A stretch of DNA of 34,876 nt. Source: Chloroflexaceae bacterium. Lineage in GTDB: Bacteria; Chloroflexota; Chloroflexia; Chloroflexales; Chloroflexaceae. Below the pieces are notes generated by a model. It ran no database searches. It saw nothing but the letters and a program-made list of their open reading frames with translations, and was not told the origin of the DNA. Location of the stretch: positions 1 through 34,876 of the forward strand of contig JAAURD010000024.1 of assembly GCA_012034075.1 (NCBI GenBank), read 5' to 3'. The position numbers and the translations under genes were made by a program. Positions 10,759-34,876 of this stretch are shown one piece after another (within the stretch, counting starts at the first letter, position 1; the number at the start of each line of letters is the position of its first letter).

Positions 10759-11448
10759 TTAATCTAGCGAGACAAACCCTCGCTGAATGGCATAGCGATA
10801 CATTTCAAACTGGTTATGCAATTGCAATTTGCGCATGCAGTTAGAGCGGTGGGTTTCCACCGTGCGCTGACTGATGCCTAACAAACGACCAATGTCTGGA
10901 GCACTTTCACCCTTGACGGTGAGATGAAAGATTTCGCGTTCACGCGCGGTCAGCGTTTCAAACGAATCAAAGGGTGTTTCGTTGGACCTTTCGATATAGG
11001 CTTCGATAGCCTTTTCGGAAAGGGGGGGACCAATATAGCGACGACCATGTAAGGCTTCACGCACGGCATGGATCAGTACGGTTGCATCGGATTGTTTGGA
11101 GACATAGGCAAGTGCCCCACCCCGCAATGCTTGAAGCACATAGGCTTCATCGGTATGCATCGAGAGGATAACAATGCGTGTATCGGGCGAGCATTTGCGA
11201 ATATCGGTTAGAATCTTTAACCCTTCCGCACGAGTAAAATAGCTTTTATCACTTACATGTTCATCACCATCTCTGGGCATAGTAAGATCAAGTATCAAGA
11301 CATGAGGCATTAAATGGGCAATGAGGTCAAGTGTTTCGATTAAGTCACTGGCTTCACCCACTACTTCAAAATCGGGTTCGGATTCGAGCAAAAACCGAAA
11401 ACCTTGACGGACTACCTGATGATCATCAGCAAGAAAGATGCGTACCAT
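10759..11448 (-). CDS. NarL/FixJ-type response regulator
   Basis: 229 residues from ATG 11448, preceded by AGGGTGG; an upstream in-frame start at 11478 lacks a ribosome site. The receiver (1-125) has D8/D9, phospho-acceptor D54 in 'LILDLTMP', S96 and K118. Between the beta3 loop and helix 3 there is an extra acidic and aromatic stretch of roughly 14 residues ('RDGDEHVSDKSYFTRAEG') not usual in this family. The C-terminal LuxR/GerE helix-turn-helix (about 163-228) reads 'LTAREREIFHL' and 'ISQRTVETHRSNCMRKLQL'. It should bind DNA as a dimer when phosphorylated by the kinase encoded just upstream. The genes lie 118 bp apart, and a promoter in that gap lets the regulator be expressed on its own. 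Confidence 0.93.
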   Translation of the reverse strand: MVRIFLADDHQVVRQGFRFLLESEPDFEVVGEASDLIETLDLIAHLMPHVLILDLTMPRDGDEHVSDKSYFTRAEGLKILTDIRKCSPDTRIVILSMHTDEAYVLQALRGGALAYVSKQSDATVLIHAVREALHGRRYIGPPLSEKAIEAYIERSNETPFDSFETLTAREREIFHLTVKGESAPDIGRLLGISQRTVETHRSNCMRKLQLHNQFEMYRYAIQRGFVSLD

Positions 11449-11547
11449 AAAGACCACCCTATCTGTGCAAGGCCGCATAACGATAGTAATTTGTGGTTAG
11501 GACAGGTTCACGAGAACCCCCACATACAGCTGATAAAGCTGATTTGT

Positions 11548-11575
11548 ATTATACCACATTTCGTCGTTATGGCAA
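11548..11575 (-). promoter_or_regulatory. Sigma70-type promoter for the response regulator
   Basis: On the minus strand TTGCCA (11575-11570), a 16-bp spacer and a perfect TATAAT (11553-11548). The -35 overlaps the kinase stop codon at 11567-11569. Transcription would start near 11541, about 90 nt before the regulator's ATG. Confidence 0.6.
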
Positions 11576-14500
11576 GAGTGGGAGTTCAACTGAGAGACAT
11601 GTTCCTTTTCCGGGCCATGATTCAATATTCAGCGTCCCATTGAGGCATTTCGCCCGTTCATACATCCCTAGTAAACCGCTTGAAGAGGCTTGCTGTTTGA
11701 CAATTTCGATCTGAAATCCCTGACCCTCGTCTTCGATCTTGATACAGAGTTGATCGTTTTCTACCCACAGACGCACCATAACCTCAGATACCTGGGCATG
11801 ACGGGCGACATTGGTCAGGGCTTCTTGAATGATGCGATAGGCCACCGTGACGACGCGGTCGGGCAAAGATCGGTGCTCTAAATCATGATGCTTAAAGTCT
11901 ACCTGCACCTCTGTCTGATCCTGATACCGCTCAAAATGCCAGAAGAGCGTGGGGAGCAGCCCTAGATCATCGAGCATGGGGGGACGCAGTTTGAGTGACA
12001 AACTGCGCACCTGCTCCATCAAATCAAAGATGTGCTGACTCATCTCTGCAATCTTGTGTTTTTGGGCATCGTTGGGTAGCCGGGGTAAGAGCTGCAAGCC
12101 AAGACGTAAGCCGGTCAGTTGCTGCCCAATCTCATCGTGTAGTTCGCCGGCGATCCAGCGACGTTCGCTCTCTTGTACATCCACCAGCCGGTGCGAGAGG
12201 TGTTGCAGCTGTTCTCGGTTCTGACGCGCCTGTTCAAAGAGATACGACTGCCACAACGCAATCGAGAGCCGGTCGACAATATCATCAATAATCTCCAGTT
12301 CTTCATCAGAAAAGCACTGATCCCTGATGGGTTGAAGCATAAAGCAGCCAATAACCGTATCGCCCACCTGGAAGGTTGCACGATACAGCTCATGGGTTAC
12401 TTTGCGTGTGGGCCAATCGTCATGCCAGGGGCAGCAGATGTCCTGTTCAGGAAAATGCTCCTGCATATGTAAACAGCAGGTATCTGGCTCAAATTCGTTC
12501 CGTGAGAACGAAGGGATGAGCACGAGATCGATCTGATGTTGATTGTTGTAAAACTGGGATACCAGGACATGCTTGGTTTCACGGGCCATCAGTACCAGAT
12601 GGGCGGTCTGATAGGAGATTAAGCTCTGCAACGATAGCAGAGCTGCCATTGCAATATCATCGGATGAATGTGCTTCCAGAATAGCTCGGTCCAATTTACG
12701 TTGACCCCTCAAACGAACATTTAAATATGCAAGTTCCTTCTGTTCTGTACGCTGTTCAGTGAGATCAGTGCCTAAGGTAAAGCAGCCGAGCACGCGGCCT
12801 TGCGCATCGATATGGGGAATATAATCGGAACGAAGATAGCGGATACTTCCATTCGGAAGTTGCATTTCCCAGGTATAGGTTACCTCTTCGCCAGACAGCA
12901 CCCGTTGTAACTTATCCAGAGCAAAGAGATAATTCGCTTCACCGACAACATCACGTACCGAACGACCAATCATCTGCTCTGGAGCAATGCCGAACCATTC
13001 TTGATAATACCGGTTACCAAACCGGTAGGTGAGGTCTGAATCAACATAAGAAATGAGCACGGGTACTGAGTTCGTGATGAGCTTTAACCATTGTTCATGC
13101 TCTTCGATCTGCTGAAACAGCTTCTTCTGCTGGGTAATATCGGTCTTGGTACCGATCATCCGCACGGGTTGGCCGGTATCATTAGGGATAACCTGGGCAT
13201 GGGTGTGGAACCAGCGAGCCTGCCCGTCTTTATGCCAGAGCCGATGCTCAATATCATAGGCTGGCAATGTTCCGGTGAGATGTCCTTCAAACGCAGCCAG
13301 AACGCGTGCGCGATCATCTTCGAGCAGAAACGTTGCCCATTCTTCCATACTGGTGCCAATCTCATGGTCCGCATACCCCAACATCTCTTTGAGTTCGGGG
13401 GAAAGATAGATTTCATTGGTGGTCAGATCAAGGTCCCAGATACCGACCCTACCGGCCTTGACTGCTAGCACATAGCGCTCCTGACTTGCAGCCAGTTCGG
13501 CAGTACGCGCTTTGATGCGTTGCTCTAATTCGGCGTTCAAGCGGCGTATCTCGGCATTCGCCCGTTTCCGCTCGGTGATGTTGGTTGAGATGCCACCAAT
13601 CGCGGATATCTCGCCCTGTTCATTAAAGATGGGGAATTTAATCGAGAGAAAATCGGCTGGTTGTTCATCTACCAGAATTGCTGGTTCCTCAAAGGTATAG
13701 GCACGTTGTGAGGCAATCACCCGTTGCTCATTGGCCTGCCATGCCTGTGCCAGTTCGGGCGGAAAGATATCAACATCGCGTTGATGCAGCATTTTCGCCC
13801 GCCAGTCAGCGCCTACAACTTGCTCAATCGCATCATTGAGCAAAAGAAACCGGCCTTCCAAGTCTTTGACATAGATCACCGCGGGTGAATGCTTTAAAAT
13901 GCTCTGTAACAGGTTTTCTCGCTCACGCAATGCTTCTTCTGCTTGTTTGCGGTCGGTGATGTCGATGCAGGTGCCATAGTGGCGGTAGGGTTGACCGGTA
14001 GCATCAAGGGCTATCTGACCGTGCAAGGCAAACCAACGCAAACTACTACCAGCATGATAGAGACGGACCTCGGTATCATATGTGTTGCAACCAGCTGCGA
14101 TCTGGTGTTTAATGACAGCTTGAATTGCTTCCAGATCTGGTTCATAGACCAGATTCTGCCATTCATTTACATCCTGGGGGGTGATCTCGGGTGCGTATCC
14201 GAGCATATGGGTAATGCCAGGACTAACATAGACCGAACCCGTGGCGACATCGATATCCCAGATAACTACTCGACCCATATTCACGGCCAGGTCATAGCGT
14301 TCCTGGAGCTTGGCGAGCCGTTGCTGACTTGTAGATAATGCTTCATCACGCTGTTGTTCGCCACTGATATCGCGAAATACGCCGGCGACACCACAGATCG
14401 CTCCTGATAGATCACACAGCGTGACTGCCGAAAGCTCTCCCTGAAAGGTGCTGCCATTACAGCGACGAAAGGCCAGAATACCGCACCATGAGTTATTATC

Positions 14501-15184
14501 AATGGTGTTCTGGATGCATTCCATCACATATGCTCGATCTTCGCTGAACATATCGAGGATATGCATACCTATGAGACTATCACCATAGCCCATAATGTCA
14601 CGACAGGCACGGTTAGCATAGGTGATCTTCCAATCAAGGTCAATCGTACCGATAGCATCAGCAATATGTTCGACCATATAATAAAATGCCTGTCGCTGCT
14701 CATACTGCAGCGCTGTTTCGACTACTCTGTGTTGTTGCTGCGAACGCCACTGCTCATAGAGTGTACCGGTAACAACAGTTAAGGCATCACACCCTTGTTC
14801 GAGCAACAACAAGCCCTCAACCGCACCAGGTAGACGATCAGAGATGGCCGGTAGGGCTGACCGCAACAGATGTCGCCGCACAAGATTCAACGCTGTCAGT
14901 ACATCTGCAAGGGGTACCCGTTGATCCTGGAGGATGTCGAGCAAGAGAGGTTCTATACCAATCGGATAGTGGTTGGTATCATGGGCTATCAGGCTTTGCA
15001 ACAAGGCTTCTATGACCTGGTCTACTGACGCACGAATTGCTTCGGGGGGAAAACGGTGATAAACGCCAACCTTATAGACATAATCATGCACAATGGAATC
15101 GACCATTGAGGTTCGTTGTTGTTGCATGTAATCAGCGAAGGTTTCAACCAGGGTCTGGTGTGATGGTATGGTCATCGTATCCAT
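11567..15184 (-). CDS. Multi-PAS/GAF sensor histidine kinase (NarX/DesK type)
   Basis: About 1205 residues. ATG 15184 is preferred because AGAGGA lies six bases upstream; ATG 15190 is the alternative. The N-terminal ~150 residues are helical and resemble the RsbRD N-terminal sensor domain. Five PAS domains follow (about 169-279, 296-419, 426-541, 570-691, 701-815), most closing with the 'GT..DIT..K' PAC motif. A GAF domain (~834-984) carries two Cys pairs (CC at ~903 and ~917). The HisKA_3 dimerisation helix has H~1016 in 'GELHDEIGQQLTGLRLGL', and the ATPase domain shows 'EALTNVARHA', 'DEGQGF' and 'GLLGMYERA'. No membrane helix is apparent, so it senses cytoplasmic signals, with PAS domains probably binding cofactors. 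It should phosphorylate the response regulator encoded next. Confidence 0.93.
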   Translation of the reverse strand: MDTMTIPSHQTLVETFADYMQQQRTSMVDSIVHDYVYKVGVYHRFPPEAIRASVDQVIEALLQSLIAHDTNHYPIGIEPLLLDILQDQRVPLADVLTALNLVRRHLLRSALPAISDRLPGAVEGLLLLEQGCDALTVVTGTLYEQWRSQQQHRVVETALQYEQRQAFYYMVEHIADAIGTIDLDWKITYANRACRDIMGYGDSLIGMHILDMFSEDRAYVMECIQNTIDNNSWCGILAFRRCNGSTFQGELSAVTLCDLSGAICGVAGVFRDISGEQQRDEALSTSQQRLAKLQERYDLAVNMGRVVIWDIDVATGSVYVSPGITHMLGYAPEITPQDVNEWQNLVYEPDLEAIQAVIKHQIAAGCNTYDTEVRLYHAGSSLRWFALHGQIALDATGQPYRHYGTCIDITDRKQAEEALRERENLLQSILKHSPAVIYVKDLEGRFLLLNDAIEQVVGADWRAKMLHQRDVDIFPPELAQAWQANEQRVIASQRAYTFEEPAILVDEQPADFLSIKFPIFNEQGEISAIGGISTNITERKRANAEIRRLNAELEQRIKARTAELAASQERYVLAVKAGRVGIWDLDLTTNEIYLSPELKEMLGYADHEIGTSMEEWATFLLEDDRARVLAAFEGHLTGTLPAYDIEHRLWHKDGQARWFHTHAQVIPNDTGQPVRMIGTKTDITQQKKLFQQIEEHEQWLKLITNSVPVLISYVDSDLTYRFGNRYYQEWFGIAPEQMIGRSVRDVVGEANYLFALDKLQRVLSGEEVTYTWEMQLPNGSIRYLRSDYIPHIDAQGRVLGCFTLGTDLTEQRTEQKELAYLNVRLRGQRKLDRAILEAHSSDDIAMAALLSLQSLISYQTAHLVLMARETKHVLVSQFYNNQHQIDLVLIPSFSRNEFEPDTCCLHMQEHFPEQDICCPWHDDWPTRKVTHELYRATFQVGDTVIGCFMLQPIRDQCFSDEELEIIDDIVDRLSIALWQSYLFEQARQNREQLQHLSHRLVDVQESERRWIAGELHDEIGQQLTGLRLGLQLLPRLPNDAQKHKIAEMSQHIFDLMEQVRSLSLKLRPPMLDDLGLLPTLFWHFERYQDQTEVQVDFKHHDLEHRSLPDRVVTVAYRIIQEALTNVARHAQVSEVMVRLWVENDQLCIKIEDEGQGFQIEIVKQQASSSGLLGMYERAKCLNGTLNIESWPGKGTCLSVELPLLP

Positions 15185-15255
15185 AGTCATTCCTCTGTGA
15201 GACGTTTGTTGTCGGTCTACCTTGATATGCTGTCTATCAGACCGCATATTTTTGA

Positions 15256-25509: not shown

Positions 25510-27798
25510 TTATGCAAGCCATTTCATCACGCGCCATTCCGCATAGAGCGAACGGAGACGCAGGCTGATTTGCGGCGACAGCCGGTCGGAGACGCCATAG
25601 GCCAGCTGTTCCAGGTTGTTGCCGCCCAGCCGGGCCAGACGAGCCGTAGCGGTAGCCAGGCTAAACCGACCATAATCGGTCACCCATTGGCGGACGCCGC
25701 TGGGGCCGAGCACTTTCCATGGAATAGCCAGGATAATCCAATAGCGCAGCAACATCTGCCAGACGATTTTGTTGTAGTCGTCCCAGCGCATCTGATCTTG
25801 AAAGAAGCGTATTGCCAGTTCGTGGCCCAGTTCATCTAATGCGCCGAGAAAGGCGTTCTGGATTTCGTTGACATTGTGCGGTTGGCCCCAGGGTTGCATA
25901 AAACGGCTAAAGACCCAGTTCAGCGATACATTGATCTGGAATGGGCTGACTCGCTCAAGGTATTTCGGCTCCAGCAAATCGTGGTGGAGTGCATAGTCAA
26001 GCAGGCTGGTGGTGCGTTGGATATTACGAATGTGTGAACCAAAACCGCAATACGTCAGCGGGCTTTGCTGGGCGGCTGAATCTCCTACTGGTAAGACGCC
26101 CCGCAGCAGTGGGGCTTCTTGCGCGTTGACGCTGTGACGGCCCGGAATATAGCCATACACGGGCTTGATATGCTGAAAATCCGGACCGGGCTGTTTGTAG
26201 GTGGGTAAGAGATCAAAATAGATTTCAAAGAGCTCGAGCAGTGAGTAGATTGGCTGACCGGGAGGCGGGTGCGGATCACATCGTGGTGCATGCATCGTGC
26301 TACGATGTTTGGCATGCGGTCCGCGCAGCGCAGCATAATAAAACACATAGGTTGTCAGTTCGTCATTTCGCCCAGGAAACCCTTCCCAGATAAACTGACG
26401 GCCGGTTTGAATATCGGCCACGCTGATCAGGATATCCCCAATGGTCGAGTCCAGCTCACGTGGGCCAGTGCCCTGCACAAAACCACGAGCAACGGTACCG
26501 ACCGTAGGACACACCCCGGCAAAAGGGTCGCCCTGATGGCGCATCAGCGCCAGCGGTGAGACACTGCCCATCCCATCGAGGAGTAATCGTGCCGTGTAGG
26601 TTTCCGAGAGCGGCGTCGTGCTGCCGTCCGAGCGACGGGCTACCGATTCCAGTTCAACCGCAACGCGCAGTGGGCCTTCTTCGGTCACGCGGACACAGCG
26701 AAAGGTGCGATGATCGAGCAAGATACCACCGGCGGCTTCGAGTTTGCGTCGCATCAAACGCAGGATAGCGCCGGCATCAATCGCCAGATTAAGCACATTA
26801 TCCATCCAGAGTTCGTGATGATCGACCTGACTGTAGGGACTCTGGTGAAAACTGACGAGACCGCTGCGGTATTCGCGCATGATCACCGGCGCAAGATCAT
26901 CCCAGGTCACCACACCCGTATCGACCAGGTTTTGCAGTTCGGTACGGCTAATGTTCCATTCACGATGGGCACAGCCTACTTCGCTGCGGTCAAAGACCAT
27001 CACCCGCCAGCCATAACGGCAGGCCATCACGGTAGCATGAATCAGCCCCAGGCCACCGCCTGCATAGATCAGGTCATAGTCGGTTTGATGCATGTCACGG
27101 TGCAATGGCAATGTCTCCTGGTCCCAGGGTTGATAGACCGTGCTCTCATATTCGCCACGCAAAATGCGTTCCCATGAGCGTTCCAGCCGCCAGACCCGTT
27201 CCAGGTGATCGAGTGCTCCCATCGTCTCAAAGTGTTCTACCGTTTTGGGGTAATACGGTCGCAGCCGATCCGCCAGGGGCGATGCTGGGGTCAATGGAGC
27301 TTCGACCGGAGCGTTGCCCCCGCCCCCAACGCTTACCATGGCGCCAACATGCATCGGCACCGAAACCGTCGGTGCTGGTGACACAACCGCCACACGACGA
27401 CGCAACTGGCGGGCCAGCGCCGTCGTACAGCCGCGCAGCGCAGTAACCAGACGGTGGCGATAAAGCAACTGCTGCCAGGGCCAGATCATCCCCGGCAGTG
27501 TGAGTGTTACATGAACAATAGCGTGCGTCGAAAGGACAAAATCATGCAGGGTCATCTCGACCTGAAGTGTGATGGCAGGGTTAGCTTGAGAGACAATCGT
27601 CCAACAGAAGTGATCTTGCGATACGGTATCGCTCACAACGTCTATGGTATAGAGGTCGTCGCCCCAATGCCAGAAATGCCCCACCGGTTTGCCACCTGTG
27701 GGCAATGTTAGCCAGATATCATGGTCGTGTAAACGCTCACGCGTTACAGATAGGGGGACTGGTAGCTCAACATAATCGGTATGGTGTATCCTCATCAT
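25510..27798 (-). CDS. CruA-type lycopene cyclase-like flavoprotein with START-like N-terminal extension
   Basis: 762 residues from ATG 27798 (AGGA eight bases upstream). Residues ~240-760 resemble the CruA/CruP carotenoid cyclase family: FAD-binding 'YDLIYAGGGLGLIHATVMAC' (241-260) and the characteristic 'HREWNISRTELQ' (278-289), later 'GVLPVGDSAAQQSPLTYCGF' where the flavin is closed. CruA cyclises lycopene to gamma-carotene, the main carotenoid precursor of green phototrophs. The first ~125 residues are a strand-rich segment with Trp and His (HFWHWGDDLY; VEMTLHDFVLS) that looks like an SRPBCC/START lipid-binding domain. A Gly/Pro-rich linker (~140-175) joins the two. The family call is fairly firm; CruA versus CruP and the SRPBCC call are inference. 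It has its own promoter. Confidence 0.78.
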   Translation of the reverse strand: MMRIHHTDYVELPVPLSVTRERLHDHDIWLTLPTGGKPVGHFWHWGDDLYTIDVVSDTVSQDHFCWTIVSQANPAITLQVEMTLHDFVLSTHAIVHVTLTLPGMIWPWQQLLYRHRLVTALRGCTTALARQLRRRVAVVSPAPTVSVPMHVGAMVSVGGGGNAPVEAPLTPASPLADRLRPYYPKTVEHFETMGALDHLERVWRLERSWERILRGEYESTVYQPWDQETLPLHRDMHQTDYDLIYAGGGLGLIHATVMACRYGWRVMVFDRSEVGCAHREWNISRTELQNLVDTGVVTWDDLAPVIMREYRSGLVSFHQSPYSQVDHHELWMDNVLNLAIDAGAILRLMRRKLEAAGGILLDHRTFRCVRVTEEGPLRVAVELESVARRSDGSTTPLSETYTARLLLDGMGSVSPLALMRHQGDPFAGVCPTVGTVARGFVQGTGPRELDSTIGDILISVADIQTGRQFIWEGFPGRNDELTTYVFYYAALRGPHAKHRSTMHAPRCDPHPPPGQPIYSLLELFEIYFDLLPTYKQPGPDFQHIKPVYGYIPGRHSVNAQEAPLLRGVLPVGDSAAQQSPLTYCGFGSHIRNIQRTTSLLDYALHHDLLEPKYLERVSPFQINVSLNWVFSRFMQPWGQPHNVNEIQNAFLGALDELGHELAIRFFQDQMRWDDYNKIVWQMLLRYWIILAIPWKVLGPSGVRQWVTDYGRFSLATATARLARLGGNNLEQLAYGVSDRLSPQISLRLRSLYAEWRVMKWLA

Positions 27799-27955: not shown

Positions 27956-29170
27956 TTATGAAACGGTGACAATATCGTGCGCAGCGGCCCAGCGGGTCAG
28001 GTCCTGACGATTGATCGCCGCTGCCATCAGGTCGGGGAAAAGCTCCGGTGTGCAGGCAAAGACAGGGATACCCAATGCATGCATGCGAATGGCGGCACCC
28101 CGATCAAAGCTCGGTGCGCCGCTATCGTTTAAGGCTAACAGCGCTATCATCTGTACGCCAGAGGCGACAATCGCACCGGCCCGACGGATCATTTCATCTT
28201 CTCCGGATCCCTCATACAGATCGCTGAGCAAGACAAAAATCGTCTCCTGTGGCCGGTGAATCAACCCCTGACAGTAGGCCAGCGCACGGGGCGTATCGTT
28301 GCCCCCGCCAAGCTGTACGCCAAAGAGCAAATCAACTGGATCGTGCAATTGATCGGTCAAATCAACGACAGCTGTGTCGTAGGCGACTACGTGGGTTGTG
28401 ACGGACGGCAATGACGCGAGCACGGAACCAAAAATGCCCGCATATACCACCGAACGCCCCATTGAGCCACTTTGATCGATGCAGAGAATGATATCGCGTA
28501 ATGCCGAACGTTTGCGCCCATAGCCAATCCGCACTTCGGGAACAATCGTCTGATAGTCTGGTTGGTAGTGTTTGAGGTTGGCGCGAATAGTGCGATTCCA
28601 GTCAATCTCGTGGTGGCGTGGACGGTAGTTACGCGTCGCGCGGTTGAGACTGCCCATCACCGCCTGGCGCATCGGGTGGGCTAATTTGCGCTTGAGATCC
28701 TCGACCACGCCGTTCACCACAGCACGGGCAGTCTCACGCGCACGGTCAGGCATCACGCTCTTCAGTTCCAGAATCGTAGTGACCAGATGGACATCTGGCG
28801 ACATGGCTTCGAGCATCTCCGGCTGAAGCAACATTTGACGCAAGTTGAGCCGTTCTAGCGCATCCTTCTGCATAATGCGCACGACCGGCGTTGGGAAGTA
28901 GGTGCGAATATCCCCCAACCAGCGAGCGACCTTGGGGGATGATGCGCCCATGCCCACCTTGTGTTTATCCATTTCGGTGCCGTCGGACGTGCCGTCGGAC
29001 GTGCCGTCGGATGATGCATCCGATTCGCCCTGCCCGTAGAGCAAGCTCAGGGCGGTATCCATCTTTTCATCGTTGCCACCGAGCTTGCAGCCGGTGCCAT
29101 CGGCACTGCCACCACCCAGGATCAGACGCCAGCGGCGTTGTTGTTCTTCATGCGGGTCGGGTTGGGTCAT
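27956..29170 (-). CDS. VWA-domain protein of the MoxR/DUF5682 cassette
   Basis: 404 residues from ATG 29170, which overlaps the end of the DUF5682 gene by 23 bp; an in-frame TTG at 29203 would lengthen the overlap. The N-terminal ~110 residues are polar, with an SDGT repeat (53-65). A helical middle leads to a CoxE-like von Willebrand A domain (~222-404) with a complete MIDAS metal site: 'DQSGSMG' (D232, S234, S236), T293 in 'GGNDTP' and D317 in 'LLSD'. VWA proteins of this sort act with MoxR ATPases to insert metals or remodel protein complexes. This is the last gene of the five-gene unit. Confidence 0.9.
   Translation of the reverse strand: MTQPDPHEEQQRRWRLILGGGSADGTGCKLGGNDEKMDTALSLLYGQGESDASSDGTSDGTSDGTEMDKHKVGMGASSPKVARWLGDIRTYFPTPVVRIMQKDALERLNLRQMLLQPEMLEAMSPDVHLVTTILELKSVMPDRARETARAVVNGVVEDLKRKLAHPMRQAVMGSLNRATRNYRPRHHEIDWNRTIRANLKHYQPDYQTIVPEVRIGYGRKRSALRDIILCIDQSGSMGRSVVYAGIFGSVLASLPSVTTHVVAYDTAVVDLTDQLHDPVDLLFGVQLGGGNDTPRALAYCQGLIHRPQETIFVLLSDLYEGSGEDEMIRRAGAIVASGVQMIALLALNDSGAPSFDRGAAIRMHALGIPVFACTPELFPDLMAAAINRQDLTRWAAAHDIVTVS
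28977..29012 (-). repeat. In-frame 12-bp tandem repeat (three copies)
   Basis: GTGCCGTCGGAC occurs at 28977-28988 and 28989-29000, then once more with one change at 29001-29012. In the VWA gene it encodes Ser-Asp-Gly-Thr repeats in a flexible N-terminal region. Copy number can change without a frameshift. Confidence 0.8.
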
Positions 29171-31550
29171 GCGCTTCTTTCTGTGGTAAGGGTGTACTCT
29201 CAATGCCTAACAGCCGCGCCACCACGGGGAGCACACGGGCGGCTCGTTCATGATCAAGGGTGCTCTGCTCAGTGTGATGCGCTGTCACGGTCGGGCCGGC
29301 TTCCGCCGCGGTACGGACGCGCTCACCCAGACGACGGCGAACGGGCGCGGCAAAGGTTGAAAACGTGCGGCGCAGCAGGGGCAAGAGCTGTTCAAAGACC
29401 GATGGGGTGAGGCTCATCACCCAGCTATCTATAACCTGCCAGAGGACGTGATCATGCACCAGGATTTCGCCACTGCTCACCAGAAAGCCTTCAATCCAGC
29501 TCGCTGCATGCTCCGGTGGGTTAGCCGGCGAACATTCCAGGCCCATACGCCGGGCTACCTCGGCCGCATCCAGCGCATGCTGATCAAACAACAGCCGAAT
29601 GCAACGCCCCGCCAACAAGCCATGCAGTCCTGTCTGATCCGCCAGACGTTGCAACACACCCTGCCAGGCGGCATGCTGTTCCGGCTGTTGCAGCATGGTA
29701 ATCACCTGATTGCAGGCAATCAGCGACTTGAACATCTCACTGGCCGCGTCATCATCAAGCGAGGAGCAGGCACCTGGTAGACCAATGCAAATGCGTGTCA
29801 CCAGACTATCGACCACATGACCAACCGCCTCGGTATCGGTTTTGCGCACATCACCATAGCGCAGAATACTTGCCAGATCGGGCAATGCCTGCATCATCTG
29901 CCCAACATCGGTGGTCAGGGCCGCCTGGTTTTGCAAGCGCAGGGTCAGGTCGGGAATAGCATCGGGCAAATGGGCCAGCAACACGCGGTGGATCAACCGG
30001 CTCAGGGCGGGCAGGTTGGTGATGCCATCAGCTTCAACACGCACGCGGTGACCCGCTGCTTCATAGATCGTATTGCCCCAGACGCCCGCCTCAATCAGCT
30101 TGATTGCCAGTTCGGGCAACCACTGGATCCGCCATTTTTCCCAGAACGTCCCCTTCGCACGATCGCTCCCGCGTAGTTCACCCCAGGGTACGTCGATAAG
30201 CTGGAGTCGGTGCAACAGGTAACTGCGATCACGGTCGTTCTCTTTGCGCAGGTCCAGGTCCAGGTCACGCCAGTTCGCCTCGGGCTTGAGGCGCAGGCGG
30301 CGCTGTTCGCGCTGCAAATCGCCCTGCAGCGGCACCAGCGGGGTATCTTCAGGGACGCTGCCCAGCTCATTGCCAACAATCAACTGCTCGTGGATCAGGC
30401 GCATGGGCGCATCGCTATCAAAGCAGAAGATCGCACGGGCAGCCTCGTTCATTTCGGGCAGGCCGGGCAGCGGTGAGTCGCGCAAAGCTGCCAGTGTCTC
30501 TGCCAGCCGCACCGCCTCGATAATATGCGCCGAGGAGGCGTCCAGGTGTTCGCTGCGCAAGAGCCGCGCCACATGCGTCATCCAGTGAATGATCACATCG
30601 GTATGGTTGAGACCGGCCTGAGCCGACTGAAAGAGATGGCGGTACCAGCCGGGCGATTCAATGCCGGCGCCATAGCCACTGCGCATGGAGAGGCGGTCAT
30701 AGGTCCAGGGCACCCAGGTCGCTTTGACCTTCGCTTTTGGTAGGCCCTTGAGTTGCTTCGTATCTTCTTTTACCGGCGGCATGGTTGCCAGGGCCGGCCC
30801 ATGCCAGGCACCGCACACCACGGCAATGCGTTCAAACCCCTCGCGCTGCGCCTGACGAATAGCCTGTCGCATCCAGGCCTCGCGCTGCGCCTCACGTTCG
30901 GCTTCAAGTGGGTTGGCCGGCGGTGGTGTTTCGGCCCGCACTGCGGTCATCGCCTCTTGAATTGCCACAAAGAGGTCGGTACTATCACGCCGTTGCTCTA
31001 CCATATGCTCCCACCAGCGCTCACCATCGCTATACCCGGCGGCACGCGCCAGCACCCCCAGCGGGTCACGGCGCGGGTCATCGTCATCGGCCAGTGCCGC
31101 AGTTGGGTCATCGGTGGCTGCGGTTGATTCGGCTTCCGCCGGTGCTTGCTCCGTCTCGGGCGGGGCATTGGTTGGCGTCTCAGCCGCATCGGTCTCGGCT
31201 TCAGCTGGCGCCTGCCGCGCCTGTTCTATGGCCATCTGGTGCGCCTGCGGCAAATCCATAAAGCGCACCGGGATGTGCTGGGTTAACCCATACGAGAGTG
31301 CCTGCCATTCGGGAGAGAAGCGGGCGAAGGGGTAGTAGACGGCCAGACGCGGATCATCTGGCACGTAGATCAGCAGCGCGACCGGTGGGTCCATCTGCGG
31401 ATGGTTCACCAATGGCAGCACCTCAGCTGCATCGGGCGGGCCTTCAACCAGCAAGATATCGGGGCGCAGTTGCTCCAGCGCTTGAAGCAGGCTATGCGCT
31501 GAACCAGGGCCGTGGTGACGGATACCAAATATGTACGGGTCAGCGGGCAT
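29148..31550 (-). CDS. DUF5682-family protein
   Basis: 800 residues from ATG 31550, 15 bp after the MoxR stop. The N-terminus 'YIFGIRHHGPGSAHSLLQAL' (R11, H12, H13, G14) followed by 'RPDILLVEGPPDA' (E36) is the family signature. A second conserved patch is 'IAVVCGAWHGPAL' (H250). Between them lies a low-complexity Ala/Glu/Pro/Thr segment (~113-158). The long C-terminal half is helical. The two His/Glu patches and 'GAWH' recall the TraB/TIKI/ChaN/EreA fold ('H..S...L...Pd.v.vE' and 'GaGH'), which suggests a metal- or ligand-binding, possibly hydrolytic, domain. This comparison is my inference. No signal peptide or membrane helix. The family usually occurs with MoxR, VWA and SWIM proteins, as here. 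Confidence 0.85.
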   Translation of the reverse strand: MPADPYIFGIRHHGPGSAHSLLQALEQLRPDILLVEGPPDAAEVLPLVNHPQMDPPVALLIYVPDDPRLAVYYPFARFSPEWQALSYGLTQHIPVRFMDLPQAHQMAIEQARQAPAEAETDAAETPTNAPPETEQAPAEAESTAATDDPTAALADDDDPRRDPLGVLARAAGYSDGERWWEHMVEQRRDSTDLFVAIQEAMTAVRAETPPPANPLEAEREAQREAWMRQAIRQAQREGFERIAVVCGAWHGPALATMPPVKEDTKQLKGLPKAKVKATWVPWTYDRLSMRSGYGAGIESPGWYRHLFQSAQAGLNHTDVIIHWMTHVARLLRSEHLDASSAHIIEAVRLAETLAALRDSPLPGLPEMNEAARAIFCFDSDAPMRLIHEQLIVGNELGSVPEDTPLVPLQGDLQREQRRLRLKPEANWRDLDLDLRKENDRDRSYLLHRLQLIDVPWGELRGSDRAKGTFWEKWRIQWLPELAIKLIEAGVWGNTIYEAAGHRVRVEADGITNLPALSRLIHRVLLAHLPDAIPDLTLRLQNQAALTTDVGQMMQALPDLASILRYGDVRKTDTEAVGHVVDSLVTRICIGLPGACSSLDDDAASEMFKSLIACNQVITMLQQPEQHAAWQGVLQRLADQTGLHGLLAGRCIRLLFDQHALDAAEVARRMGLECSPANPPEHAASWIEGFLVSSGEILVHDHVLWQVIDSWVMSLTPSVFEQLLPLLRRTFSTFAAPVRRRLGERVRTAAEAGPTVTAHHTEQSTLDHERAARVLPVVARLLGIESTPLPQKEAHDPTRPA

Positions 31551-31565
31551 GAGGACAGCCTCTCG

Positions 31566-32651
31566 TTAGTCGTTGATCAGTTCACGGCAGGCGCGGTAGA
31601 GGTCTTTCCAACCGTTACGCTCCTTCACTACCGTTTCGAGATATTCTTTCCAGATAACGCTATCATGGACCGGGTCTTTCACCACTGCGCCGACCAGACT
31701 GGCTGCAATATCGTGGGCCTTGAGTTTGCCATCGCCGAAGTGGGCCGCTAGTGCCTGACCACTGTTGATCACAGAGATAGCCTCAGCCGTGCTCAATGTG
31801 CTCCCCGGGCTTTTCAGCCGGGTTTTGCCATCGTTAGTGACACCCTGGCGCAATTCACGGAAGATGGTCACCACGCGGCGAATCTCTTCGAGCGCGGGTG
31901 GTTCAGCCGGCAGTTCAAGCGTGCGGCCCAGGCTCGCCACGCGTTGACGCACAATCTCGACCTCTTCTTCGGCTTTATCGGGCAACGGTAATACGACGGT
32001 ATTGAAGCGCCGCCGTAACGCACTGGAGAGATCATTGACGCCCCGGTCGCGGTCATTGGCCGTCGCAATCAGGTTAAACCCGCGCACGGCCTGCACCTCG
32101 GTATTGAGTTCGGGCACAGGCAAGGTCTTTTCCGAGAGGATCGTAATCAACGTATCCTGCACATCCGAGGGAATACGGGTTAACTCTTCCAGGCGAGCAA
32201 TCTTGCCCTGCTGCATTGCTCGCATCAGTGGACTGGCAACCAGGGCTGCCTCCGATGGCCCTTCGGCGAGCAAGCGAGCATAGTTCCAGCCATAACGCAC
32301 GGCCTCCTCGCTGGTACCCGCCGTGCCCTGGATCATCATCGTCGAGTCACCCGAAACGGCGGCTGCCAGATGCTCCGACACCCAGCTTTTGGCGGTACCT
32401 GGCACGCCCAGCAAGAGCAAGGCGCGGTCAGTCGCCAGGGTTGCCACCGCAATTTCAATCAAGCGGCGACTGCCAATATATTTAGCGCTGATCGTTCGAC
32501 CGCTCTTCAGTTTGCCGCCCATCACATAGGTTAGCACGGCCCAGGGTGAGAGCTTCCAGTTGGTCGGACGTGTGTGGCTATCCTCTTCTATCAGGGCAGC
32601 CAGTTCATCGGCAAACTGCTGTTCGGCGTGCTGCCGTAAAAATGTGGTCAT
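31566..32651 (-). CDS. MoxR-family AAA+ ATPase
   Basis: 361 residues from ATG 32651, which shares ATGA with the stop of the DUF5691 gene, so translation is coupled. Walker A is 'GVPGTAKS' (82-89), the Walker B region reads 'GKIARLEELTRIP' (149-161, Glu-Glu as in this MoxR subgroup), sensor 1 is 'LIATANDRDRG' (N199) and the arginine-finger region is 'LSSALRRRF' (208-216). MoxR ATPases form hexamers that remodel or activate partner proteins, commonly a VWA protein encoded beside them. This is the motor of the cassette. Confidence 0.93.
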   Translation of the reverse strand: MTTFLRQHAEQQFADELAALIEEDSHTRPTNWKLSPWAVLTYVMGGKLKSGRTISAKYIGSRRLIEIAVATLATDRALLLLGVPGTAKSWVSEHLAAAVSGDSTMMIQGTAGTSEEAVRYGWNYARLLAEGPSEAALVASPLMRAMQQGKIARLEELTRIPSDVQDTLITILSEKTLPVPELNTEVQAVRGFNLIATANDRDRGVNDLSSALRRRFNTVVLPLPDKAEEEVEIVRQRVASLGRTLELPAEPPALEEIRRVVTIFRELRQGVTNDGKTRLKSPGSTLSTAEAISVINSGQALAAHFGDGKLKAHDIAASLVGAVVKDPVHDSVIWKEYLETVVKERNGWKDLYRACRELIND

Positions 32652-34258
32652 AAAGTCAACTCCTTGAGCATATCGTCGCGAAACTGCAAGGTTACAACCA
32701 TGTGCTTCAGTGGATCATGCCATCGCTGGATGGGATCATGCTCGTCAGCGAAAATCACAGCGACTTCTCGTGCCATATCGGCCGGAAAACGGAGGGCCAG
32801 CATTTCGGACAGTGGCACCACCAGTTGGGACATGGTATACCAGAAACTGGAACTCTTTTTCGGCGGCGTTTGGGCCAGACGCTCTTGCACACTTTGCCAG
32901 ACAGCGCGGGCAAGCCGGTGGCTCCACGGTTGCTGGTAGCGCAAGAGAAAGGGCATTGCCGCATGCTCCAGATGTATGGGCTGCCGTTCTTCGTGCAACA
33001 GCCGTAGAATAATAGTCTCAATCCAGTCTGCGGGCAACCCTTCGGTCAACATATCCAATGCTGCTTGATTGTTGTGTTTGAGCAGCAACGGGAGCAATGC
33101 TTCCAGAAACGGGAGATCACCGCTGCGATGCGCCGCCTGAGTCCAGGCATGCACCAGCAGTGCTGTCCAGTCGCTCTGTTGGGCAGCCTTGATGAGTTCA
33201 TGCGGGCCAAGCTGCCATTGCTGATACCAGTAATTTGTGGGCACAAAGCTCACGATCTGAGCGAGCCACCAGCTCTTCTCGCTCAACCACCATGGCTCTT
33301 TGCCCGCAGCATACGACATAGATGGTGGTTTGCACGCAATTCCATCGCGAACCATTGCTTCATCACAGGTATCTGGCAATGTAACCTCAAGGCTCCGCCG
33401 TTTCAGTAATCCACCGTCTTTCAGCGTTATCAGCGTCATCGCTCGCTGCTGCATACGTTGACAGAGCCGTGACTCAGGCAGCTTGCCAAGCAGAACTGCC
33501 GCGAATGTTCGCACATGTGTACTGCGATCATCAAGCACGGTTTCCAGCCAGGGTTCATCATCCATGCTCAGGCCGGCGCCACACAGATCCAGAAAGCGCC
33601 GGCGGTCATCGGCCTTTTCACTCTTCCAGGTGAGTTGCAACAGCGTGCGAGCCTGTGCCGTGTTGTACTGCCGCAGATACTGCAACAGCTCCAGGCGCTC
33701 GTGGGCTTGCCCGGTCTCCCAGCGTTGCTGCATCTGCGCCTCATCCAGCCGGCCCATGTCGGCATTGCCGCGGGCATAGGCCCATGCCGGGTTGTGGTCG
33801 GCAAGCCAGCGCCCACGCTGCCCCAGGACGGCACGGATCGGCCCATGGAGCGATTTCTGGCTTGTGCCGAGCTGGAGCAGTGCCACCAGCTGGTGATGCG
33901 GCACACGATAGCCCGCCGCAGCGGCGGCTGCCAGCCATTCGGGGAGTACCTTCGGGTGGTTGTTGCTGAGCATGGATGCCAGATGGTGCGCTGCGGCCGC
34001 CGAACAGGACGGCTGATCGTCTGGTGTACATGGTGGCAATGGGGGCGTTATTGCGGTGGTTGTTGGCTGACCAGCACGACGATAGAGACCGACGGTAGCA
34101 GCGGTGAGCAGCAAAAAGCGCTCATGTGTGGTCTTTGGCAGTCCAGCGAGTAGTTGCCCAGCCGGGTTGGTATTGGGCACTGGTGGCGGTGTCTGACGCC
34201 CCGTACCCACCAGCGAAGTGGTTACCAGTTCGTGCCAGTACGCTTCAATCGTTGTCAT
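32648..34258 (-). CDS. DUF5691-family HEAT-like protein
   Basis: 536 residues from ATG 34258, three bases after the stop of the SWIM gene, with GGAG upstream inside that gene. It begins MTTIEAYWHELVTTSLVGTG and is almost wholly helical. 'RLELLQYLRQYNTAQARTLL', 'DDRSTHVRTFAAVLLGKLPE' and 'HNNQAALDMLTEGLP' look like HEAT/ARM-type repeats suited to a protein scaffold. Two Cys are present but no catalytic motif. The middle part is Trp-rich (EPWWLSEKSWWLAQI). The family is known to me only as a companion of SWIM, MoxR and DUF5682 proteins. Confidence 0.85.
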   Translation of the reverse strand: MTTIEAYWHELVTTSLVGTGRQTPPPVPNTNPAGQLLAGLPKTTHERFLLLTAATVGLYRRAGQPTTTAITPPLPPCTPDDQPSCSAAAAHHLASMLSNNHPKVLPEWLAAAAAAGYRVPHHQLVALLQLGTSQKSLHGPIRAVLGQRGRWLADHNPAWAYARGNADMGRLDEAQMQQRWETGQAHERLELLQYLRQYNTAQARTLLQLTWKSEKADDRRRFLDLCGAGLSMDDEPWLETVLDDRSTHVRTFAAVLLGKLPESRLCQRMQQRAMTLITLKDGGLLKRRSLEVTLPDTCDEAMVRDGIACKPPSMSYAAGKEPWWLSEKSWWLAQIVSFVPTNYWYQQWQLGPHELIKAAQQSDWTALLVHAWTQAAHRSGDLPFLEALLPLLLKHNNQAALDMLTEGLPADWIETIILRLLHEERQPIHLEHAAMPFLLRYQQPWSHRLARAVWQSVQERLAQTPPKKSSSFWYTMSQLVVPLSEMLALRFPADMAREVAVIFADEHDPIQRWHDPLKHMVVTLQFRDDMLKELTL

Positions 34259-34261
34259 GGT

Positions 34262-34876
34262 CTACACTCCATGAAAGACCGCATCAATCCATAGGCCCAG
34301 CGGCAACAGGTTTGCACCGTTCCATTCGGCAGCCAGCAACACCGGGTGACCACCACTGAGGGCCAGCAAGGGCCAGCCTGCATCTGAATGGCGGCTCATG
34401 GGCAGGCTCTGGTTGTTGCAATCACGAAGAACCCACGTTGAACCATGCACCTCAACCCAAACCATATCGAGCAAGAGCAACATGGTTTCAATCCAGGGGT
34501 TGCAAGCCAATGCGGTGGCGTAGTGTTCCAACGCGTCGTCCAAGGTTGCCGCTGCTCCCGCTGGTCGGCTCTTGATAGCTTCTGCGACCGCATGCTGCTT
34601 GACCACGACGGCACGTTGGAGATAGCTACCGGGGTAAAACGCAATATCGGCATCCAAGACCTGCCCTGGTATCAAGGTCTTATCGAGCGGGTTATTGCCA
34701 TAGGCAAAATCGAGCACCAGGGCCGCCCGTTGGTGCTGCTCAGCCCATAACCAGGTCCGCTGGCTGCGCAACCGGTTATCTTCTTCTTCCTGCTGACCCA
34801 CAACCAGCCAGCGGTCACGCAGCGCCGGCTGTGCTCGCACCTCGGCCTCTTCGATGGTGATGCCAATGACTGCCCG
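34262..34876 (-). CDS. SWIM zinc-finger family protein, C-terminal part (5' end beyond window)
   Basis: The frame is open to the right edge and stops with TAG at 34262-34264, giving about 204 visible residues. 'ALRDRWLVVGQQEEEDNRLR', 'SQRTWLWAEQ' and 'LIPGQVLDADIAFYPGSYLQ' match the C-terminal region of large SWIM zinc-finger proteins that accompany DUF5691 and MoxR genes. The CxC...CxH finger itself lies outside the window, so the name rests on this C-terminal similarity and on context. It is the first visible gene of the cassette; its promoter is not in view. Confidence 0.75.
   Translation of the reverse strand, partial: RAVIGITIEEAEVRAQPALRDRWLVVGQQEEEDNRLRSQRTWLWAEQHQRAALVLDFAYGNNPLDKTLIPGQVLDADIAFYPGSYLQRAVVVKQHAVAEAIKSRPAGAAATLDDALEHYATALACNPWIETMLLLLDMVWVEVHGSTWVLRDCNNQSLPMSRHSDAGWPLLALSGGHPVLLAAEWNGANLLPLGLWIDAVFHGV

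Follow-up and report, generated by a model that had tools for sequence, protein, structure and literature searches.

A widespread bacterial operon that pairs a MoxR ATPase and a VWA protein with DUF5682, a probable TIKI-type hydrolase

The operon and its surroundings

The window, that is the whole stretch of DNA analysed, is 34,876 nucleotides long and is an entire contig (C78) of a Chloroflexaceae bacterium, the draft genome of which amounts to 5.0 Mb in 369 contigs. Five genes on the minus strand run inwards from the contig end, and are listed in the order in which they are read:

34262..34876, minus strand: SWIM protein, C-terminal part of 204 aa, the 5' end truncated by the contig end
32648..34258, minus strand: DUF5691 protein, 536 aa, HEAT-like scaffold (Pfam DUF5691, E 1e-130)
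31566..32651, minus strand: MoxR AAA+ ATPase of the YehL type, 361 aa (Pfam AAA_5/MoxR, E 2e-39)
29148..31550, minus strand: DUF5682 protein, a YehM homologue, 800 aa (Pfam DUF5682, E 1e-287)
27956..29170, minus strand: CoxE-type VWA protein with a complete MIDAS (VWA_CoxE, PF05762, E 2e-45)

From the first gene to the fifth the spacings are a 3-bp gap, a 4-bp ATGA overlap, a 15-bp gap and a 23-bp overlap, the start of the VWA gene being taken as the ATG (an earlier TTG at 29203 is in the list of open reading frames). An initial annotation of this DNA had read the five genes as one tightly packed unit, and both coordinates and spacings match that reading. Directly downstream on the same strand is an ORF of 762 aa (25510-27798) with no Pfam match at E 1e-4. 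Elsewhere in the window a histidine kinase of 1226 aa with many PAS domains (11567-15247) is followed by a response regulator gene (10759-11478).

The MoxR and VWA proteins

The pairing of a MoxR AAA+ ATPase with a VWA protein that has a complete MIDAS is borne out by the Pfam matches above and by the motifs of both proteins. The ATPase has a Walker A motif (GVPGTAKS), a Walker B motif with two glutamates (RLEELTR), the sensor-1 Asn and an arginine finger, whilst the VWA protein has DQSGS followed by the Thr and Asp that complete the MIDAS, and DxSxS, T and D are conserved amongst its relatives. Walker A (GxPG[T]xK[ST]), sensor 1 and the arginine finger are conserved in all 72 MoxR homologues, as is a Walker B of the form R-[VIL]-E-E-x-T-R, E. 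coli YehL included, with the Asp that binds Mg in other AAA+ proteins being Glu throughout these 72 YehL-type proteins.

The MoxR protein is 40% identical to YehL over 353 aa (E 4e-75) and its neighbours are homologous to YehM and YehP, which places it in the YehL subfamily; the Pfam bpMoxR profile matches it weakly (E 1e-6). E. coli K-12 has two MoxR ATPases, of which YehL, a named MoxR subfamily, is one (PMC3893208), thus the description of the locus as an undescribed system holds in part, in that no function for YehL was found in the literature searched, whilst its ATPase had already been named.

Conservation and variation of the gene unit

Scanning a single genome for each GTDB species gave at least 592 stretches, all encoding DUF5682 relatives, from which 80 loci were kept, and gene order was counted in the 62 loci with enough room on both sides. 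In 47 of these all five genes lie on one strand, usually in the order SWIM-DUF5691-MoxR-DUF5682-VWA, and in 40 of the 47 every gap is below 400 bp. DUF5682 loci span about ten phyla, including Cyanobacteria, Chloroflexota, Pseudomonadota, Bacteroidota, Actinomycetota, Planctomycetota, Verrucomicrobiota and Deinococcota, and Candidatus Oscillochloris fontis is amongst the relatives found. There is no sixth gene family that most of the loci share.

Amongst 301 Chloroflexota genomes DUF5682 is found in 42 and DUF5691 in 31, with both in 29 where 4.3 would be expected (P 5e-28, a value made too small by the relatedness of the genomes, which leaves the pattern itself unaffected). Thirteen genomes have no DUF5691 at the DUF5682 locus, and 11 of them carry it elsewhere. 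The five-gene arrangement is not due to chance. Of the two outcomes that would have told against the initial annotation neither was seen, in that the families do co-occur across genomes and DUF5682 does not turn out to be a housekeeping enzyme of some unrelated kind.

The parallel drawn with E. coli yehL-yehM-yehP-yehQ is upheld, with homology for three of the four genes. In addition to YehL, the VWA protein is 34% identical to YehP (E 4e-71) and the DUF5682 protein 26% identical to YehM (E 4e-34), yehM itself being annotated as DUF5682; the homology of these three extends over most of each sequence and the gene order is shared. E. coli also encodes a SWIM protein nearby, but the SWIM protein of the window's genome has no BLAST match to YehQ, and there is no recognisable homology outside the finger. 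In E. coli and Iodobacter the cluster starts with WGR/DUF4132 genes, which are followed by MoxR (YehL), DUF5682 (YehM), VWA (YehP) and SWIM (YehQ), thus the SWIM gene is last and WGR/DUF4132 genes (yehF, yehH and yehI in E. coli) are in the place of DUF5691. Homology between DUF5691 and either DUF4132/YehI or YehQ is rejected on the hhalign results (p 0.42 and 0.51).

Other arrangements occur. Some Chloroflexota relatives have MoxR-DUF5682-VWA-SWIM or VWA-MoxR-DUF5682 and no DUF5691, a related arrangement lies on a Streptomyces plasmid, and some DUF5682 loci, several of them cyanobacterial, have no adjacent VWA or MoxR gene. As MoxR-DUF5682-VWA persists in the variants without DUF5691, it is this triad that is the constant core, with the remainder being exchangeable. 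Two loci (L119 and L121) have a divergent VWA-MoxR-DUF5682 set, with two genes in front (452 and 160 aa) that have no Pfam match. Inserts between MoxR and DUF5682 are found in L047, L048, L052, L055 and L093 and are different in each, being a cytidylyltransferase-like protein in L055 and a TPR-like protein in L093.

The SWIM and DUF5691 proteins

The first gene had been described as encoding a SWIM finger protein, which is true of the genome but not of the window: the 204 aa within the window have neither a SWIM finger nor a Pfam family match in a Pfam scan. The finger, CSCPSRKQPCKH, is located on another contig of the same genome, C82 (L116 3-812, minus strand), and the C82 fragment reads straight into that of the window (...PIEQQAD / RAVIGI...), giving a joined protein of about 474 aa. 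The window fragment has 57 BLAST matches (best 1e-43), the best of which lie in the C-terminal half of complete SWIM proteins encoded at other loci, and the C-x-C...C-x-H of the finger is kept in 53 of 53 SWIM proteins.

The HEAT-like nature proposed for DUF5691 agrees with a match to HEAT_2, albeit a weak one (E 0.018, Pfam). In a planctomycete and in the actinomycete Phytohabitans the SWIM and DUF5691 proteins are a single reading frame (L091 5631-8615; L101 6092-8941).

The predicted fold of DUF5682

The full-length model of DUF5682 (pLDDT 89.2, pTM 0.84) has an alpha/beta domain at residues 1-313 and a helical solenoid at 476-750, with a middle part between the two. The parts of the gene to which the argument refers are, on the minus strand:

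30612..31550, minus strand: residues 1-313, predicted TIKI/EreA/ChaN-type alpha/beta domain (model and fold search)
29301..30125, minus strand: residues 476-750, predicted helical HEAT-like solenoid (model)
31512..31517, minus strand: H12-H13 of an RHH motif, candidate for the first GxxH of the superfamily (G9-H12)
31443..31445, minus strand: E36, the predicted catalytic Glu
30882..30884, minus strand: R223, the conserved superfamily Arg (RN/RE motif)
30801..30803, minus strand: H250 of the second GxxH (G247-A-W-H250)

A fold search with the whole protein is swamped by HEAT and helical-repeat matches to the C-terminal half, therefore the N-domain was modelled alone (pLDDT 88.7). With Foldseek alone nothing better than E 0.03 was found for this domain, and amongst viral entries it is a protein of the TraB family that comes out on top when the whole protein is the query (probability 1.00, E 0.023). 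When the Foldseek candidates are re-ranked with VIA-align, the two best PDB rows are chains of the Tetrahymena complex IV (Z 9.8 and 9.5, 190 and 188 residues aligned, rmsd 5.0 and 4.8), followed by ChaN (Z 8.5 with 160 residues aligned at rmsd 4.6), then three Ere-like entries (Z 6.5-6.7), EreC (6.0 and 5.8) and RRSP (5.0-5.5), values to be read in the light of a best Z of 7-8 being common for models with no clear match. These proteins make up the 11 best rows, with other folds beginning at Z 4.7; the two Tetrahymena chains are putative members of the superfamily. The TIKI superfamily takes in ChaN, 3B55 and RRSP and is tied to the Ere family (PMC6254334).

The case for the fold is that this superfamily occupies the top rows and that its motif is kept, as the Z values alone are insufficient. 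On this basis the N-domain is predicted with high confidence to have a TIKI/EreA/ChaN-type fold, with the parallel beta-sheet core and flanking helices of Tiki, RRSP, EreC and ChaN. Unlike those proteins, DUF5682 has no significant sequence-profile match to the superfamily, has an additional HEAT-like C-terminal half and is tied to an AAA+/VWA pair. A search of PDB sequences with the DUF5682 profile found no match. Close relatives of the window's genome have no TraB homologue, thus the TraB sequences used are those of other genomes, and hhalign of DUF5682 against TraB/GumN aligns all four motifs (p 0.018); against erythromycin esterases p is 0.44. No mention of DUF5682 was found in the openly available papers searched, so an earlier assignment of the fold elsewhere is possible.

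A probable active site

In an alignment of 92 sequences from about ten phyla the residues of the putative active site are close to invariant (H12 89/90, H13 90/90, E36 90/90, R223 92/92, G247 92/92, H250 92/92). Their order is that of TraB/GumN and of the superfamily, GxxH, E, R (RN in TraB/GumN) and GxxH, and hhalign pairs H12 and E36 with TraB H21 and E47, and R223, G247 and H250 with TraB R212, G234 and H237. It is also the order of the active site of RRSP (H3902, E3930, R4001, H4030; PMC6254334). H12, E36 and H250 are at or just past strand ends in the DUF5682 model, which is comparable with RRSP, where the active-site residues are near the core strands (PMC6254334). The DUF5682 protein of a faecal scaffold (MT835988.1) keeps H12 and has Leu at position 13, which points to H12 as the histidine of GxxH, although one other protein with R12 and H13 goes against this.

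The domain could instead be a non-catalytic scaffold, with the MoxR-VWA pair acting on some external client. There is precedent within the superfamily in the PMT domain, a member without catalytic residues (PMC6254334), however the residues of DUF5682 are, unlike those of PMT, essentially invariant across some ten phyla, which makes a scaffold highly improbable. The activity of DUF5682, left blank by the initial annotation, can thus be narrowed on the predicted fold and the His-Glu-Arg-His set: it is probably a hydrolase of the TIKI/EreA/ChaN fold, an intact residue set being no proof of catalysis. It is this recognition of a probable TIKI-type enzyme within an otherwise uncharacterised operon that is new.

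A proposed mechanism

In the NorQ/NorD system the hexameric MoxR protein takes hold of a finger of its VWA partner and, by twisting or stretching this finger, remodels the client to which the VWA protein is bound (PMC13036017, PMC9976466). As in NorQ/NorD, CbbQ/CbbO and CoxD/CoxE, a single-module MoxR ATPase here adjoins a CoxE-type VWA protein with an intact MIDAS. The differences are that the likely client is DUF5682, rather than NOR, Rubisco or CO dehydrogenase, that Walker B is EE here and DE there, and that there is the extra SWIM/DUF5691 arm. DUF5682 is the most likely client because it is the most faithful gene companion of the MoxR-VWA pair.

We infer from this a machine for ATP-driven activation or remodelling of which DUF5682 is the working part and SWIM/DUF5691 the arm, a reading to which we give about an even chance. 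The MoxR protein would be a ring motor, with the VWA protein docking on the ring and reaching its target by way of the MIDAS, in the manner of NorQ/NorD and CbbQ/CbbO. The target would most likely be DUF5682, with its putative hydrolase domain at the N-terminus and its solenoid at the C-terminus, and ATP hydrolysis may open it, load it (possibly with metal) or otherwise activate it by direct contact, upon which DUF5682 would cut a peptide or ester bond in its substrate. The SWIM and DUF5691 proteins, sometimes one polypeptide, might be a targeting or sensing arm, which in the E. coli version would be replaced by a different SWIM protein together with the WGR/DUF4132 proteins.

MoxR pairs with CoxE-type VWA proteins insert metals or metal clusters, thus the pair might be a cofactor chaperone like NorQD and CoxDE that supplies DUF5682 or some other enzyme with metal or haem, with DUF5682 a carrier or client of the cofactor and no hydrolase. 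ChaN, which is amongst the closest in fold, is a haem-binding protein, the WGR/DUF4132 proteins of the E. coli version were named MolR from molybdate metabolism, and yehM mutations appeared in E. coli evolved on copper. Yet DUF5682 keeps the complete His-Glu-Arg-His set of a hydrolase, which is beyond the needs of a haem ligand, and no metal-enzyme gene recurs beside the operon in the sampled loci, so that a chaperone of this kind seems rather unlikely.

If the activated-hydrolase reading is true, MoxR-VWA motors, which are known otherwise chiefly for inserting metals and activating enzymes, have a hydrolase amongst their clients, and the TIKI superfamily gains a widespread branch of motor-coupled bacterial proteins. 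Taken further, and somewhat short of an even chance, DUF5682/YehM may represent a hitherto unrecognised class of hydrolases gated by ATP, being a protease or esterase of the TIKI fold that MoxR-VWA switches and that SWIM/HEAT or WGR/DUF4132 proteins direct, in hundreds of species and nearly every E. coli. The operon is widespread in bacteria and its core, yehL-yehM-yehP, is in nearly all E. coli, and with a probable TIKI-type active site in YehM, the constant partner of YehL, function becomes testable by point mutation and enzyme assay in a model organism.

Stress, defence and phage

A further role to be considered is in DNA damage or stress, in which SWIM and WGR would guide the motor to sites of damage in nucleic acid or to stalled complexes, where DUF5682 would cut proteins. 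SWIM and WGR are, as is generally known, often modules that bind nucleic acid. In E. coli molR, which we take to be the old name of the genes heading the yeh cluster (yehF region), is listed as LexA-regulated, and a LexA-like site, AACTGGATAAAATTACAGGG (L124 6448-6467), with 13 of 20 consensus matches is 7 bp before the start of yehF in strain K-12. The DUF4132 and WGR genes of D. radiodurans belong to the DdrO DNA-damage regulon, although these genes need not be part of the system of the operon, and DUF4132 is absent from the window's genome. In the five-gene loci tested no LexA-type or RDRM site is near the first gene, with the exception of isolated matches in L070 and L080, thus control of the five-gene version by DNA damage is rejected and a damage or stress machine is unlikely overall.

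A role in conflict or defence had also been raised. MoxR-vWA pairs are the core of the ternary conflict systems of Kaur et al. 2020 (PMC7159879), and as in those systems the operon has such a core with a third component, so that it might be an anti-phage or conflict system related to them. DUF5682 is patchy in Chloroflexota (the 42 of 301 genomes above) and some copies of the operon are plasmid-borne. Unlike the ternary systems, the third component is DUF5682 and varying effectors are not seen, there being no recurring or swapping effector in the loci and no VMAP, iSTAND, FtsH or beta-propeller partner in a Pfam scan of the five proteins; SWIM, YehL, TIKI and TraB are not mentioned in the 2020 paper (PMC7159879). 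The yehM gene is core in E. coli, being in 5166 of 5426 complete genomes (95%), essentially always as a single chromosomal copy. PADLOC gave no match to the five proteins better than E 0.014, and the sampled neighbours of the operon, with no background set for comparison, are mostly housekeeping genes. Proximity to defence islands does not emerge either, as there are few PADLOC matches amongst 97 neighbours, many of them kinases, again with no background control. A defence role is therefore disfavoured, and kinship with the ternary systems is very unlikely.

No relative was found in viral contigs. The faecal scaffold mentioned above (L166, MT835988.1), the only 'phage' match, is labelled 'Bacteriophage sp.' and UNVERIFIED, and has the MoxR-DUF5682-VWA triad alone beside apparently cellular genes, for which reason a phage origin of this triad is not accepted and the scaffold is probably bacterial DNA. 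Within PHROGs two families match DUF5682 and VWA.
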